Virus record (IMG/VR): IMGVR_UViG_3300044619_001435
Span: 1-22,903 of that record
Direction: 5' to 3' (one strand)
Source: a virus
DNA length: 22,903 nucleotides
Position 1 is the first letter of the stretch, and every line of letters begins with the position of its first letter. Below the pieces are notes generated by a model that worked only from the letters and a program-made list of their open reading frames with translations, was not told the DNA's origin and made no database searches. This document shows, in pieces, positions 4,404 through 19,122 of this stretch. Made by a program: the position numbers and the translations under genes.

Positions 4404-6872
4404 TTAAGACTGCATTGCTACTTGTTCAGCTCCCTCTTCTCCAGCTTCCTGCTCCATCTCAGCACCTTCCATTTGCTGAGCGCCCTGTTCCATCATTTGC
4501 TGTTGAGCTAACATAGCCTGTTGTTCAGCCATCATCTTTTGTTGTTGGTCCATAATCTCTTCAGCAATCAACTGCTTCTGAGTTTGAACTACACCTTCGA
4601 TACCATCGAATAACCAGCTAGGCATTTGCTCAATAGACTGACCTTGTTCTAATAGTTTCTCAAGTGTTTTGACACGCAAGATGTTAAAGTATTTAAGAGT
4701 TTCAGATTCTTTTTGGTTCTCAAGCTCTTCTTGCATTTGCTGAAGTTTGAATTGAGCTTTAGCCTGCTCTAATTGTAATTCACCTTGAGATTTAGCCTGA
4801 GCAGCTTGAACAGCCTGTTGCATTTGCATTTCACTGTTCTTCTGAGCTTCCTCCATTCTTAATCTACGTCTCTTCTTCTGAGCAGAGATTAAATAGTAAT
4901 TAGCAGCTTTAGGATTGTCAAGTAATCTGATCTGTATAGCATCTTCTAATTCGATGCTTTGTTGAGCTAACGCCTGTTGAATGTTAGCCTCTAACTGTGC
5001 TTTTTCTTTATCGTCTATAGTAGCTTCAATCTTAACATCAAAATTGGTCTTCTCAAAACCATCTTCAGCTTCTAATTTGATATACTCAACTCTATCTGTG
5101 CCAAGAGCATATTTATAACCTTCGTATCCAGTCTCACCGAATACTAAGATATCCCATAATCTCATTTGGGCGAGCTTAGCAGTTTTCTCTAAGATATTTA
5201 AGTAAGAGTTGTAGATATAGTTTACAGAGCTCTCTCCGATTTGGCGAGCATCCTCTAATACACCACGACCTACAGCCTGGTTAGTAATCATACCTTGGTC
5301 AAGTGCGTTAGAACCAATCATTCTCTCAAGCTTCGCTAACTCAAAATTGTAAAGCTCAATGAACGCCTGTAACTTTCCGCTGAATGGCACGTTTAAAGGA
5401 GTGATTGGAGGTCTTGAATTTCCTTCCAGTTCATCCACTTGTCCTTTTGTAAATACAACACCCGTTTGTTTGTAAATACGGATAAGCTCCATTGGCTGTA
5501 AAAGCCCTTTACCGTTACCCAAATCTACATCACTCATACCTGCGATATCAACGATATAACCGTCTGGTGCAGCTTGAGCAATAATCTTTTGCATTTGCAG
5601 GTGAGCTAACTGCATCTGTTTGATAGATGGAATCATCGTCTCAATCAAAGGTTTGTTAGTCATCCTGTTATTGTTGTACATATATAACGAGAACGGCAAT
5701 AAGCACTCCTGTAAGTTCTCGTTAGGCTTCAACATATTCTTAGCTACAGCCCAATGTAAAAGGTGGTTAGTATCACAGATCCAAGCTCCTTCGTATTCTA
5801 CATAGTAAGGTTTAGACTGCACATACTCCTTACCTTCTTTTATCTTCTCAGTTCTATCTAATAGAGTCTTACCAAATCTATCTTGGTTTTTCTCGTATTT
5901 AAGATTATAAAGAGTTTTGTAGGAGAGCTGTAGTACTGGCACCCTAAACGCATCGTAAGGTCTAGAGAATGCATTTGAATATTGGTAGTTCCAAGTAAAT
6001 GTCCAAGATGCAGGGTTTGAGTATTTACCAGTAGCGTTTTTAGCCAAGTTGAATAACTCCTGCTCTGAAACTTTTCCTGGGTACATCATACGAACATCCA
6101 TAATACTCATATAAACTACCTCACCCACCCACTCAATATCTTTAAAGTCATTACGCTCACTGTAAGAAAGAACCAGGTTGTAAGGATTTACCTTTCTAAT
6201 TCTCACCTTACCATTAGCGTCTAAGTATGTTTTAGTTCCACCAATACCAAAGTTGATTAAATCATCTAAGATATCGTCTTTAATTTCACGGATGTCGTTA
6301 TCGTAAAGAACAAGGTCAATACCTTGCTCCATCATCACCTCTTCTCTTTGCTTATAGTTAAAGCCAAAGTAAATATCATTTTCCTCCGCATCTTCTGGAG
6401 TGAAAGCAGAAGGGTCTTCCAGTTTCATCCCAGTTGATTCTTCTAAAGCAGCTATCTCATTTTTAAATTCCATACGGAATTGAGCCTCAGCTTTCTCCTT
6501 GCTCTTCTTAGATACGCTAACGGGGTCTATTGCATTACATCTAATTTTTTCTACACGCTGATTAAATCTATCTTTAATACGCTGAATAATAGGGATAGCA
6601 ATAGGTAGTGGTGTGAAGTCTAAGTTAGAATATGGCTGCTGGCCGTTAATATCAAGGTAATCCAAAAACTCCTGCATCGGCTGCTGACCAGTTGCGTAAG
6701 ATACGTTATAGTCAAATCTAACTTGACGTTGCTTTTGGCTTACACCTCCATACCCGTTTAACCACTGGGTATAGATACTTTTCATAACTTTTAAGCCGTA
6801 TTCTGGAGAGTTCTTATCCGAGTCGTTTGCTAACGGATTGGGAAAACCGTAATAAGTTTCTGCTGCTGCCAT
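4404..6872 (-). CDS. Portal protein
   Basis: 822 aa. It forms the ring at the head vertex through which DNA is packaged and released. The N-terminal two-thirds has the mixed alpha/beta look of large portals, with the phrase LDFTPLPIAIPIIQRIKDRFNQR near residues 84-106. The region around 520-560 (MIGSNALDQGMITNQAVGRG) and the following long helices fit the clip and stem zones. The last ~130 residues are a Gln/Met/Glu-rich helical tail likely to be coiled coil, comparable to a portal barrel. Size is large, like portals of podovirus-like phages of Bacteroidota. It lies between TerL and the scaffold gene, in standard order. No frameshift was seen. Confidence 0.85.
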   Translation of the reverse strand: MAAAETYYGFPNPLANDSDKNSPEYGLKVMKSIYTQWLNGYGGVSQKQRQVRFDYNVSYATGQQPMQEFLDYLDINGQQPYSNLDFTPLPIAIPIIQRIKDRFNQRVEKIRCNAIDPVSVSKKSKEKAEAQFRMEFKNEIAALEESTGMKLEDPSAFTPEDAEENDIYFGFNYKQREEVMMEQGIDLVLYDNDIREIKDDILDDLINFGIGGTKTYLDANGKVRIRKVNPYNLVLSYSERNDFKDIEWVGEVVYMSIMDVRMMYPGKVSEQELFNLAKNATGKYSNPASWTFTWNYQYSNAFSRPYDAFRVPVLQLSYKTLYNLKYEKNQDRFGKTLLDRTEKIKEGKEYVQSKPYYVEYEGAWICDTNHLLHWAVAKNMLKPNENLQECLLPFSLYMYNNNRMTNKPLIETMIPSIKQMQLAHLQMQKIIAQAAPDGYIVDIAGMSDVDLGNGKGLLQPMELIRIYKQTGVVFTKGQVDELEGNSRPPITPLNVPFSGKLQAFIELYNFELAKLERMIGSNALDQGMITNQAVGRGVLEDARQIGESSVNYIYNSYLNILEKTAKLAQMRLWDILVFGETGYEGYKYALGTDRVEYIKLEAEDGFEKTNFDVKIEATIDDKEKAQLEANIQQALAQQSIELEDAIQIRLLDNPKAANYYLISAQKKRRRLRMEEAQKNSEMQMQQAVQAAQAKSQGELQLEQAKAQFKLQQMQEELENQKESETLKYFNILRVKTLEKLLEQGQSIEQMPSWLFDGIEGVVQTQKQLIAEEIMDQQQKMMAEQQAMLAQQQMMEQGAQQMEGAEMEQEAGEEGAEQVAMQS

Positions 6873-12006: not shown

Positions 12007-12053
12007 CAAAAGAGAAAGGGGTTGCGGTTAAGCTTCCCCTTTTTTGTTCTCTT
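12007..12053. terminator. Bidirectional terminator between convergent genes
   Basis: AAGGGG (12016-12021) pairs with CCCCTT (12036-12041), and an outer AGAGAA/TTCTCT pairing extends the stem. The plus strand then reads TTTTT and the minus strand reads into A/T-rich sequence. It serves the lone plus-strand gene and overlaps the last codons of the minus-strand gene that stops at 12028. Confidence 0.7.
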
Positions 12054-12249
12054 GATTTAACTCCTCCATCATCTGCTCTACAGCTTCTCTAAAGTCCATT
12101 ATCTTATGATACGTGGCCTCTGGATCACCCTCTACAATTAGAGTAGATAGAAAGTCGAAGTTTTTAACTGCGTTGCGTATTACAGAGTTGATTTCTTCAA
12201 TCTTCTTTTTACGCTCTTTTTCCAGTCTTACCTGAACGCTTCTTTTCAT
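12028..12249 (-). CDS. Small coiled-coil protein, unknown function
   Basis: 73 aa from the ATG at 12249; this start leaves a one-base gap after the SSB-tail gene, whereas a longer start would overlap it. The N-terminal half is highly basic and helical (RLEKERKKKIEEINSVIRN); the C-terminal half is amphipathic and acidic (REAVEQMMEELNQE). No membrane segment is present. It is co-transcribed with the SSB-tail protein from the promoter at 12568-12599 and ends in the bidirectional terminator. The family is not recognised. Confidence 0.6.
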   Translation of the reverse strand: MKRSVQVRLEKERKKKIEEINSVIRNAVKNFDFLSTLIVEGDPEATYHKIMDFREAVEQMMEELNQENKKGEA

Positions 12250-12250
12250 T

Positions 12251-12544
12251 TTAGAAAGGTAAGTCGTTGTCACTTGCAACAGGCTCTAATTGTGCGGGCT
12301 TCGCAGCTGGCTGACCTGAAGGCTTCCAATCGTTTAATACAGCGGTGTGTGTTCTACCTTTTTCATCAACCTGTTGCTTTTGTAACAAGTCGATATCACA
12401 CCATCCACCTTCGTTCTGATGCTTTTGCAAGAATGCTACTACATCTTCTACTTTGCAAGATACTTTGATGATGTCACCATAAGTTGTTTTTTGAGTTTTG
12501 ATAAACATCCCGTTTACGAAAACCTTTTCTTTCTTTTGTTCCAT
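12251..12544 (-). CDS. Phage single-stranded-DNA-binding-like protein with SSB-type C-tip
   Basis: 97 aa from the ATG at 12544, which sits 24 bases after the -7 element; a longer in-frame reading would begin inside the promoter. Residues 6-70 look like a compact beta-rich domain (KVFVNGMFIKTQKTTYGDII, then GGWCDIDLLQ and LNDWKP). A flexible Pro/Ala/Gln linker and the terminal SDNDLPF follow. That end closely resembles the DDDIPF tip by which bacterial SSB recruits replication and repair enzymes. I infer an ssDNA-binding or SSB-mimic role in replication or recombination. It is first in a two-gene unit with a good promoter. Confidence 0.6.
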   Translation of the reverse strand: MEQKKEKVFVNGMFIKTQKTTYGDIIKVSCKVEDVVAFLQKHQNEGGWCDIDLLQKQQVDEKGRTHTAVLNDWKPSGQPAAKPAQLEPVASDNDLPF

Positions 12545-12567
12545 TTTAATTGAATTACATTGAGTTT

Positions 12568-12599
12568 CAAAGTTAAATAGAATAATCTGTATATGCAAA
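12568..12599 (-). promoter_or_regulatory. Promoter of the SSB-tail operon
   Basis: On the minus strand TTTG (12599-12596), 20 bases, then TAACTTTG (12575-12568): an essentially perfect Bacteroidota promoter. Predicted transcription starts near 12561, leaving a leader of about 18 bases. It is back to back with the plus-strand promoter at 12611-12643. Confidence 0.8.
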
Positions 12600-12610
12600 T
12601 TTATTTTTTC

Positions 12611-12643
12611 TTTTGAAAGTTTAAATATTTTTTCTTATCTTTG
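12611..12643 (+). promoter_or_regulatory. Promoter of the pseudoknot RNA
   Basis: TTTTG (12611-12615), 20 bases, then TATCTTTG (12636-12643) matches the Bacteroidota consensus. The expected start is about 12649-12652, exactly where the first paired strand of the predicted RNA begins. Confidence 0.8.
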
Positions 12644-12648
12644 CTGTA

Positions 12649-12750
12649 CTGGGATTCATCAATAAAGACATTTAACCACTAAGTGTGGGGAGTAAGCACG
12701 ATGGATCCCAGACCAAAAAGCTGAAACTCACGTTTAGTGGTTTTTTATTT
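12649..12750 (+). ncRNA. Predicted small RNA with two interleaved long stems (pseudoknot)
   Basis: Stem 1 is CTGGGATTCATC (12649-12660) with GATGGATCCCAG (12700-12711): 12 pairs, one of them G-U. Stem 2 is AACCACTAAGTGTGGG (12674-12689) with CTCACGTTTAGTGGTT (12727-12742): 16 pairs, three of them G-U. The order 1-2-1'-2' makes a pseudoknot with joining segments of 13, 10 and 15 bases. TTTTTTATTTT follows stem 2, so stem 2 can also end transcription. A perfect promoter places the 5' end at stem 1. No ORF of note lies within. The function is unknown; it could be a free small RNA or the leader of the downstream nuclease gene. An HDV-type ribozyme was considered, but stem 1 is too long and no leader would remain to cleave. 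Confidence 0.65.
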
Positions 12751-13027
12751 TGCTCAGTTGAGAACTCTGGAACTGAGGAGTACATAGGCTCGGAAGAGCA
12801 AACAAAAACTTGAGTATAAAAATATTGACAACCAATGTCAAAGTGAGAGCAATTAAGGGACTAAACATTGAACTCTCGACCAGCAGAAAGAAACATTGGG
12901 GTGGTATGAAAACAAAGCTTGGTAGATGGGCTTGTCTGGAGAAAGTTCCAGTTCTGGGGTACGCACTGTTAATATTGAATAAACTCGGTGGTTGTAGAAC
13001 TGCTGGGATATAGAGAAGGTATATCAA
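12751..13027 (+). other. Gene-free stretch with many short inverted repeats, possible RNA extension or leader
   Basis: No convincing gene is seen between the pseudoknot RNA and the nuclease gene. Inverted repeats on the plus strand are TTTGCTC/GAGCAAA (12749-12755 with 12796-12802), TTGACA/TGTCAA around 12825-12841, GAGAG/CTCTC, CTGGA/TCCAG near 12938-12953, and CAGTTCT/AGAACTG about 45 bases apart. A 67-codon frame starting with TTG at 12810 crosses it, but its start and composition are poor. The region could be a structured 5' leader of the nuclease gene or a longer RNA. Confidence 0.4.
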
Positions 13028-13402
13028 ATGAAAGAGAAGGAATTGTTTAATTGGTTGAAAGACAGGTTCTTACCTGATTTAGAGGCAACGGATCAGTTTG
13101 ACTACAAGGATGCTTACAGTAAAGAGCACGATTTGTATATAGAATTGAAGTGTAGAAAGACACACTATGATGACCTTCTTATTGAGAGTATCAAGTGGAA
13201 TAAACTTATAGAGCATAAAAACGCCAGGTATATTAACTGGACACCTAAAGGTATCTATTCATTCAATATACAGGAGATACCACCACCTACGTGGCACGTT
13301 AGATTGATGCCTCAGACAACAGAGTTTGAAAACACAGATATGATTCCTAAGGTTGTTGCTATGCTGAATGTATCCTCAGCTAAGGAGATCTCCAGGATCT
13401 AA
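13028..13402 (+). CDS. PD-(D/E)XK-like nuclease, small
   Basis: 124 aa. Its core has the phrase HDLYIELKCRKTHYDDLLIE (residues 34-53) with an acidic-x-Lys pair (E39, K41) preceded by D35, the signature of the restriction-endonuclease fold. An N-terminal helix carries further acids (FLPDLEATDQFDYKDAYS). The length is short, as for phage single-domain nucleases. Possible roles are recombination, DNA processing or degradation of host DNA. It is the only plus-strand gene between minus-strand blocks, it follows the structured RNA region, and its stop overlaps the convergent stop of the next gene (13399-13402). The fold call is by motif; metal-binding residues need a structure model. Confidence 0.65.
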   Translation: MKEKELFNWLKDRFLPDLEATDQFDYKDAYSKEHDLYIELKCRKTHYDDLLIESIKWNKLIEHKNARYINWTPKGIYSFNIQEIPPPTWHVRLMPQTTEFENTDMIPKVVAMLNVSSAKEISRI

Positions 13403-13683
13403 TTACAGTTCCATTTACGGAGAGCTAAGGCTTTTCTGGTAGGTCTACCCTTAGCATCCTTCATAGGGCCTTTAACGCCGCTCATACGGGCGCAGAAAGA
13501 CTTTCTTCTATTAGCATCCTTACTACCAGGCTTAAGCTTAGAAGGTGGCGTAGTTACAGCCATTTTAAGTTTACTGCCAGGATTAGCTTTTCTGTACGAA
13601 GCTACACCCTTAGCGTTCAATCCGCCTTTAGGGTCTTTACCTTCTTTTCTGGTCCAAGCTGGTGTCTTAGCTGTCTTTTTCAT
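13399..13683 (-). CDS. Small basic phage protein, DUF6321-like
   Basis: 94 aa from the ATG at 13683. Conserved phrases are TPAWTRKEGKDPKGGLNAKG near the N-terminus, then PGSKDANRRKSFCARMSG, and GRPTRKALALRKWNC at the end. This set is typical of a small basic domain family I know from phages as DUF6321, whose function is undetermined. About a quarter of the residues are Lys or Arg. It overlaps the preceding gene by 17 bases, and its stop meets the nuclease gene head-on. A nucleic-acid-binding or virion role is inferred. Confidence 0.7.
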   Translation of the reverse strand: MKKTAKTPAWTRKEGKDPKGGLNAKGVASYRKANPGSKLKMAVTTPPSKLKPGSKDANRRKSFCARMSGVKGPMKDAKGRPTRKALALRKWNCN

Positions 13684-13870
13684 AGCGTTTAAATGTAATA
13701 TTAGACTTGACAATAATATCCTTATGGGTAAACTGCCAAAGCTCTCCTGTATTATTAATTATCACGGTATAAACAGTATCTGTCTCGTGCCCGTAATCCA
13801 TAACTAACCAAACAACACCATCGCCCTTTGGTGTTTTCACTTCTAGGCGATTGTGCGGTTCGTATATCAC
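13667..13870 (-). CDS. Small beta-rich protein, unknown function
   Basis: 67 aa starting with GTG at 13870, coupled to the upstream stop by a GTGA overlap. The pattern of alternating strands (NRLEVKTPKGDGVVWLVMDY, TVYTVIINNTGELWQFTHKD) suggests a small SH3-like barrel. It is less basic than its neighbours. It overlaps the DUF6321-like gene by 17 bases. The family is not recognised. Confidence 0.55.
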   Translation of the reverse strand: MIYEPHNRLEVKTPKGDGVVWLVMDYGHETDTVYTVIINNTGELWQFTHKDIIVKSNITFKRYEKDS

Positions 13871-17611: not shown

Positions 17612-17768
17612 GTACGACTTAGAAGGCAATATCAAGTCAGAAAAGTTCAAGATTGGCGTAGATGTAGTAACCCAAGCCGACCACGGCATACACGAGCGGT
17701 ATATGAATAAGACATTCGACACCTACGCTGAAGCCAGAAAGTACATTAGAATCCACGAAGGTATATGA
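17577..17768 (+). CDS. Small protein, unknown function
   Basis: 63 aa: MKDKLKLIRTTEYDLEGNIK, a central segment with VDVVTQADHGIHERYMNK, and a helical end with TYAEARKYIRIHEG. A mixed alpha/beta fold is likely. It overlaps the Cys-rich gene upstream by 35 bases in a different frame, and its stop overlaps the next start as ATGA. The family is not recognised. Confidence 0.5.
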   Translation: MKDKLKLIRTTEYDLEGNIKSEKFKIGVDVVTQADHGIHERYMNKTFDTYAEARKYIRIHEGI

Positions 17769-18783: not shown

Positions 18784-19122
18784 CTATCCTAAAATGCCTT
18801 CTATTGGCTGTATTTGATGTTTTTCTTTTTTGTGCTTGTTTAAAGATTAAAGAGGGATAACCCCTCTAAATACTTTCTTTTCTACCTAATTTCCCTTGAT
18901 TTAAAGGCTTTTATTTCCTTTGCGGTGGTTTGTATTGCCTTTGAGTATTATCGTGGCTTGTAGGGCTTTATTTTCAGTCTGTTAAGTCTGTTTTATTTCC
19001 TATTGTTAATCCCCGCTAACTTTGACCCGCCCTTGATTGTTTTACCTTTGCTTTTGTCTCTTTTCTCTTATTGTATTTAGTGTTACTTGATTTCTTTTCG
19101 GTGAGCTTTTCTGTATATACTT

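Follow-up and report, generated by a model that had tools for sequence, protein, structure and literature searches.

The 22,903-base window (the whole stretch of DNA analysed here, a virus record) carries, at the start of a predicted phage transcript, an element of about 100 nt that, judged by comparative sequence analysis, is a real, conserved, and previously uncatalogued structured RNA. The structure of the element and its promoter context are well supported. The best reading is that it belongs to a new family of intrinsic terminators, built as pseudoknots or kissing loops, that open phage transcription units. In this design, the loop of the 3' hairpin is base-paired to a 5' segment, forming an H-type pseudoknot in the window and 7-nt kissing loops in most relatives. 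Such a family would add a widespread, uncatalogued RNA to the Bacteroidetes phages, whose gene control is little studied, and would be an example of an intrinsic terminator whose loop is bound by the 5' end of the very transcript it terminates.

Structure and promoter context of the window element

The arms of stem 1 form 12 base pairs, one of which is G-U, and those of stem 2 form 16, three of which are G-U (Table 1). The stems interleave as an H-type pseudoknot and a T-tract follows the second stem; both stems and their order, which had been proposed in a sequence-only reading of this DNA, can be read directly from the sequence. That reading also held that such an arrangement is unlikely by chance, and this is borne out. 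It is the top-scoring interleaved stem pair of the whole window, and its score of 62, which counts neither the promoter nor the T-tract, exceeds those of all 240 whole-window dinucleotide shuffles (mean, 42.6; standard deviation, 2.8; maximum, 54.5). The nested minimum-energy fold of the element has a predicted energy of -30.3 kcal/mol.

Table 1. Positions of the pseudoknot, its promoters, and the downstream module (window coordinates unless a locus is named)
Feature	Position	Strand	Remark
Divergent promoter, same Bacteroidetes type	12568-12599	-	Predicted to drive the leftward operon (terminase, portal, capsid)
Bacteroidetes-type promoter, TTTG - 20 nt - TATCTTTG	12612-12643	+	Predicted +1 at 12648
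Stem 1, 5' arm CTGGGATTCATC	12649-12660	+	Predicted transcript 5' end
Loop 1 motif ATAAAGACATT	12662-12672	+	Similar motif in L009, L005, and L021
Stem 2, 5' arm AACCACTAAGTGTGGG	12674-12689	+
Stem 1, 3' arm GATGGATCCCAG	12700-12711	+	Within the stem 2 loop
Alternative local hairpin using the stem 2 3' arm	12712-12741	+	Possible anti-terminator; belongs to the nested minimum-energy fold
Stem 2, 3' arm CTCACGTTTAGTGGTT	12727-12742	+	3' half of the pseudoknotted putative terminator
T-tract TTTTTTATTTT	12741-12751	+	Presumed intrinsic terminator; overlaps the end of stem 2 and runs past it
Module A, conserved structured noncoding element	12750-13022	+	83-84% identity in L003, L004, and L013; 74% in L009
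Module A in L003	5998-6270
Module A in L013	5966-6241
Module A in L009	6286-6582

The element is located in the interval that separates a divergent pair of Bacteroidetes-type promoters from the next rightward gene. The minus strand of the window encodes a terminase, a portal, and a structural protein, and its kin among named phages have Flavobacterium and Cellulophaga as hosts. The promoter pattern TTTG-TAnnTTTG has 4 matches in the window, compared with 1.3 expected. Because the TAnnTTTG box sits at -12/-5 where it has been mapped in Flavobacterium psychrophilum (PMC9723704), we place the predicted +1 at 12648, and stem 1 begins at +2, one base past it. The consensus promoter that had been claimed just before stem 1 is present, but it is of the Bacteroidetes type, TTTG - 20 nt - TATCTTTG, and a sigma-70 assignment was dropped in favor of it. 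This promoter type, the terminator-like 3' stem, and the conserved noncoding element downstream had all been overlooked in the earlier reading.

In agreement with that reading, which found neither an open reading frame nor a named RNA family to account for these bases, no ORF of at least 50 aa explains the element, and there is no match to it in Rfam 15 at the gathering threshold; permissive Rfam scans gave only weak, subthreshold matches there. ARAGORN reports no tRNA in the window. No antisense promoter was found over the window hairpins, since the sole nearby TTTG-TAnnTTTG match on the opposite strand (12568-12599) points away from them. The neighboring genes at 12028-12279, 12251-12598, and 13028-13402 have no Pfam matches. 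The minus-strand gene at 13399-13713 encodes a small basic protein that matches several PHROGs of unknown function, and its DNA resembles Pelagibacter and cyanophage records.

Relatives with the same pseudoknot topology

Loci from the same phage group were obtained by a terminase scan of IMG/VR. Three of them (L009, L005, and L006) have a pseudoknot of the same topology at the homologous locus, directly past the promoter, with quite different stem sequences, and the same topology with yet other stem sequences is found in L021, a more distant phage with 47% terminase identity. A T-tract ends the interleaved stems in these relatives too. For the best interleaved pair counted from the predicted +1, the observed score is reached by 0 of 400 shuffles in each of the window, L009, and L005, by 4 of 400 in L006, and by 2 of 400 in L021, compared with about half of 400 shuffles for each of two control loci without the element (L003 and L013). 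The weakest case among these loci is L006, whose second stem has alternatives. Relative to the predicted +1, stem 1 starts at +2 in the window, +1 in L009, and +8 in L005. Loop 1 contains ATAAAGACATT in the window, ATAAAGATATT in L009, ATAAGATATT in L005, and ATAAAGGCATT in L021. Relatives that retain the region and lose the pairing had been named in the sequence-only reading as evidence that would count against the pseudoknot; where the element is retained, its stems still pair in interleaved order although their sequences are wholly different, and what L003, L004, and L013 lack is the whole element, not the pairing of a retained one.

We searched Rfam 15, IMG/VR, INPHARED, and one genome set by means of sequence patterns. 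With the element itself as the query, neither blastn nor nhmmer found relatives, as expected when the pairing alone is conserved, and the exact stem 1 pattern has 0 matches in IMG/VR. Scans with the adjacent protein and with a module A pattern yielded nothing new, and a TerL search of one genome-contig set found no relative. Two pattern matches in the genome-contig set were rejected as chance matches in coding sequence. Among open-licence papers, we found no description of this RNA.

The kissing-loop group

A scan of 80 relatives' loci for a promoter followed by interleaved stems and a T-tract also yielded L044 and L046, and the homologues of these two supplied sequence patterns for two further scans of IMG/VR. 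The resulting group comprises 57 contigs and, once four chance matches were removed, 42 distinct sequences; those four (L102, L109, L110, and L123, among the 57 pattern matches) look coding and lack the architecture. The shared plan is a 5' hairpin (AATCCGA.../...TCGGGTT) with a 7-nt loop, a small hairpin, and a terminator hairpin (AACCCAYAC.../...GTGTGGGTT) followed by a T-tract, and the loop of the terminator hairpin carries the complement of the 7-nt loop of the 5' hairpin. All members have the terminator stem and T-tract.

Across 37 distinct aligned sequences, pairing in the loop-loop helix is 100%, and all 7 pairs of this helix have changed on both sides with 0 broken. The whole structure is 97.8% paired in these sequences, compared with 85.5% for shuffled partners and 29 to 43% for slid partners, and the covariation score is 0.317, compared with 0.113 for shuffled partners (reached by 0 of 500 shuffles). 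Because the search pattern included the outer part of the 5' hairpin, that part carries no weight in the covariation. Five more divergent sequences likewise have complementary loops. The alignment contains 16 allele pairs, all of them self-complementary, and cross combinations are complementary in only 12 of 240 cases. Between near pairs of sequences, the loops differ by 0.334 per column, compared with 0.088 for the scaffold outside the search anchors. L091 and L144 differ in 1 scaffold column and in 10 of 14 loop positions, and their flanks are otherwise unrelated; the loop alleles of these two appear to have been exchanged or diversified. Alleles that change in matched pairs offer a ready test system for loop-loop specificity.

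A TAnnTTTG promoter lies a few nucleotides before the first pairing arm in 44 of 48 kissing-loop loci, and with the spacing from F. psychrophilum (PMC9723704) the predicted +1 marks the start of the invariant sequence, which four variable bases precede. The upstream gene is codirectional in 47 of 47 loci and the first downstream gene in 43 of 47. The placement itself varies among unrelated phages: the RNA is upstream of terminase in L091, between terminase and structural genes in L116 and L136, and before an Erf-type recombination gene in L113.

The window form and the kissing-loop group cannot be aligned in sequence and share only the promoter, the topology, the T-tract, and a short ATAAAGA..ACC motif. 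We nevertheless judge that they probably constitute one family, because they have in common the promoter position, the topology, the terminator, a following noncoding module, and the short motif and because L021 and L005 are intermediate.

Downstream noncoding modules

Module A, the 273 bases behind the window pseudoknot, is 83.6% identical to L003 and L004, compared with roughly 69 to 79% for other aligned stretches, and it is more conserved than the surrounding coding genes. A coding function was rejected, since single-base indels between relatives break every frame. Module A has no Rfam match; it has a consensus fold with a few compensatory changes. In L003, L004, and L013, it lies directly behind its own promoter with the pseudoknot absent, and it is probably a structured RNA in its own right.

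In the kissing-loop group, the module position is filled by at least five other, unrelated clusters of about 200 to 400 bases (30, 12, 6, 4, and 3 loci, plus one singleton), and most have no ORF of 70 aa ahead of the next gene. None of the downstream modules searched has an Rfam match, and the loop alleles are independent of which module follows. The site is one at which phages exchange several unrelated, strongly conserved noncoding RNAs of about 200 to 400 nt. A TAnnTTTG box lies directly past the T-tract in 12 of 48 loci, against a background of 2.9% per 50 nt, and may be the downstream module's own promoter at some loci. Several modules fold with many compensatory changes; examples of modules, taken as the first 200 to 400 nt past the kissing-loop RNA, are those of L094, L104, L113, L046, L136, L095, and L096.

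Proposed function and alternatives

We see about an even chance that the element is an attenuator that also releases a small RNA of about 100 nt, with the 3' hairpin as the intrinsic terminator, and on the sequence evidence it is probably an on/off gate for what lies downstream. RNA polymerase would either stop at the T-tract, releasing a compact small RNA, or, when an alternative fold takes up the terminator strands, read through into the downstream noncoding module and genes. Capture of the loop by the 5' segment would favor the terminator fold. In the window, stem 1 would form first, the local hairpin could hold the 3' arm of stem 2, and termination would require the pseudoknot. Candidate inputs to the switch are a protein, a ligand, a second RNA, or the dose of the RNA itself.

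For the kissing-loop group, two nearly isoenergetic folds are predicted: one keeps the three hairpins, and the other is a nested rod joined by pairing of GGGTT from the 5' hairpin with AACCC from the terminator. The rod is the nested minimum-energy fold in 17 of 42 sequences. Either fold can accommodate the loop-loop helix, and the three-hairpin fold is supported by covariation in both the inner 5' stem and the inner terminator stem. The cross-pairing of the rod is kept through changes in L096 (A-U to U-A and G-U to G-C) and in L036 and L099 (U-R to C-G), and part of this helix also belongs to an extended form of the small hairpin in the three-hairpin fold. The candidate anti-terminator fold is based on predicted energies plus a small number of compensatory changes; in the window it is just the local hairpin. 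Counting against attenuation are the box past the T-tract in a quarter of loci (12 of 48) and the occurrence of module A behind its own promoter without a pseudoknot.

The box past the T-tract also gives scope to the main rival, which is possible and deserves serious weight while falling short of probable: the element would be a self-contained small-RNA gene with a trans-acting product, aimed for example at an RNA or protein of the host or of a competing phage, and the neighboring modules would be independent RNA genes, some perhaps with their own promoter. The element has its own promoter and terminator, occupies differing locations in otherwise unrelated phages (L091, L116, L136, and L113), and has near-identical scaffolds within unrelated flanks, with loops that change while the scaffold stays, as in L091 and L144. 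However, it is codirectional with the following gene in nearly all loci, the ORF in L021 starts within about 20 nt of the T-tract with no promoter between, and the loop 7-mers are not matched in the downstream module of the same phage, which also leaves a targeting of that module by the loops unsupported. We consider it unlikely that the pseudoknot is instead the 5' domain of one longer noncoding RNA (about 12648-13022) in which the T-tract is no terminator. The downstream element does start a few bases from the T-tract and is more conserved than coding genes, but the T-tract is kept in all members despite the unrelated modules behind it, module A occurs without the pseudoknot, and the pseudoknot precedes plain ORFs in L021 and L006.

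That the stems arose by chance, or are palindromes retained for a role of the DNA itself, protein binding for instance, is very improbable. The arms of stems 1 and 2 are also inverted repeats as DNA, but the shuffle tests, both of the whole window and from the predicted +1, and the strict orientation and position relative to the promoter argue against this explanation. For the kissing-loop group it is contradicted by the covariation, since compensatory change is complete across 37 distinct sequences and slid controls are far lower. We entertain as a doubtful idea that the matched, fast-changing loops are a self-recognition code, in which released RNA would compete through its loops with the internal contact that nascent transcripts of that allele make. 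If this were true, a phage could sense its own dose or exclude relatives with the same allele (superinfection immunity), and the swappable large structured RNAs would be the payload behind the element.

Comparison with known RNA systems

The late-gene leader of phage lambda consists of pR', 6S RNA, and tR', with antitermination by Q. The order of promoter, short RNA, terminator, and phage genes is alike; in contrast, no Q-like protein was identified here, the architecture is a pseudoknot or kissing loop, the promoter is of the Bacteroidetes type, and the RNA is not always ahead of late genes. Type III antitoxin RNAs (ToxI) form repeated pseudoknots, as do STAXI elements (PMC2864571). These are also small pseudoknots in or near mobile elements, whereas the phage RNA is single copy, with far longer stems and a terminator built into the knot. 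At the window locus there is only one pseudoknot, without tandem repeats, and Pfam searches of the three neighboring genes found no adjacent toxin.

Leader attenuators and riboswitches that choose between a terminator and an anti-terminator resemble the phage RNA in their 5' position, terminator hairpin, and alternative fold, and in the kissing-loop group also in a loop-loop contact that involves the terminator hairpin; a kissing loop is found in corrinoid riboswitches (PMC10653944). Unlike these systems, the phage RNA has no conserved aptamer-like core beyond short motifs, its contacts are among its most variable parts, its downstream content is diverse and usually noncoding RNA, and it has no Rfam match. 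In the ColE1 RNA I/RNA II kissing loops, loop sequence sets compatibility (PMC9458437). The fully complementary short loops (7 nt here) and the divergence of alleles on a constant scaffold are similar, whereas both loops here are in one molecule and no antisense promoter was found at the window locus. GOLLD and ROOL are also structured RNAs encoded by phages; their function is unknown, kissing loops are part of their structure, and tRNAs are often nearby (PMC12286853). They are much larger than the phage RNA, form multimers through intermolecular contacts, and lack the leader-terminator design, and their Rfam models do not match it.

Other candidate RNAs at related loci

In L112 (9053-9173, minus strand) and L142 (about 6380-6490, minus strand), the kissing-loop RNA and the module are separated by a tRNA-like structure that has acceptor, D, and T arms but carries a long insertion where the anticodon arm would normally be. 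The L112 structure scores 31.5 bits with the Rfam tRNA model, and ARAGORN reports no tRNA. The rest of the L005 contig (L150) has, at 17636 on the minus strand, a second promoter-proximal interleaved stem pair with C5/G5 tracts, possibly a second such RNA. At 19045 on the plus strand of L066, the promoter TATATTTG is followed by two tandem hairpins, one with AAAAGACATT, and a T-tract, perhaps another small phage RNA.
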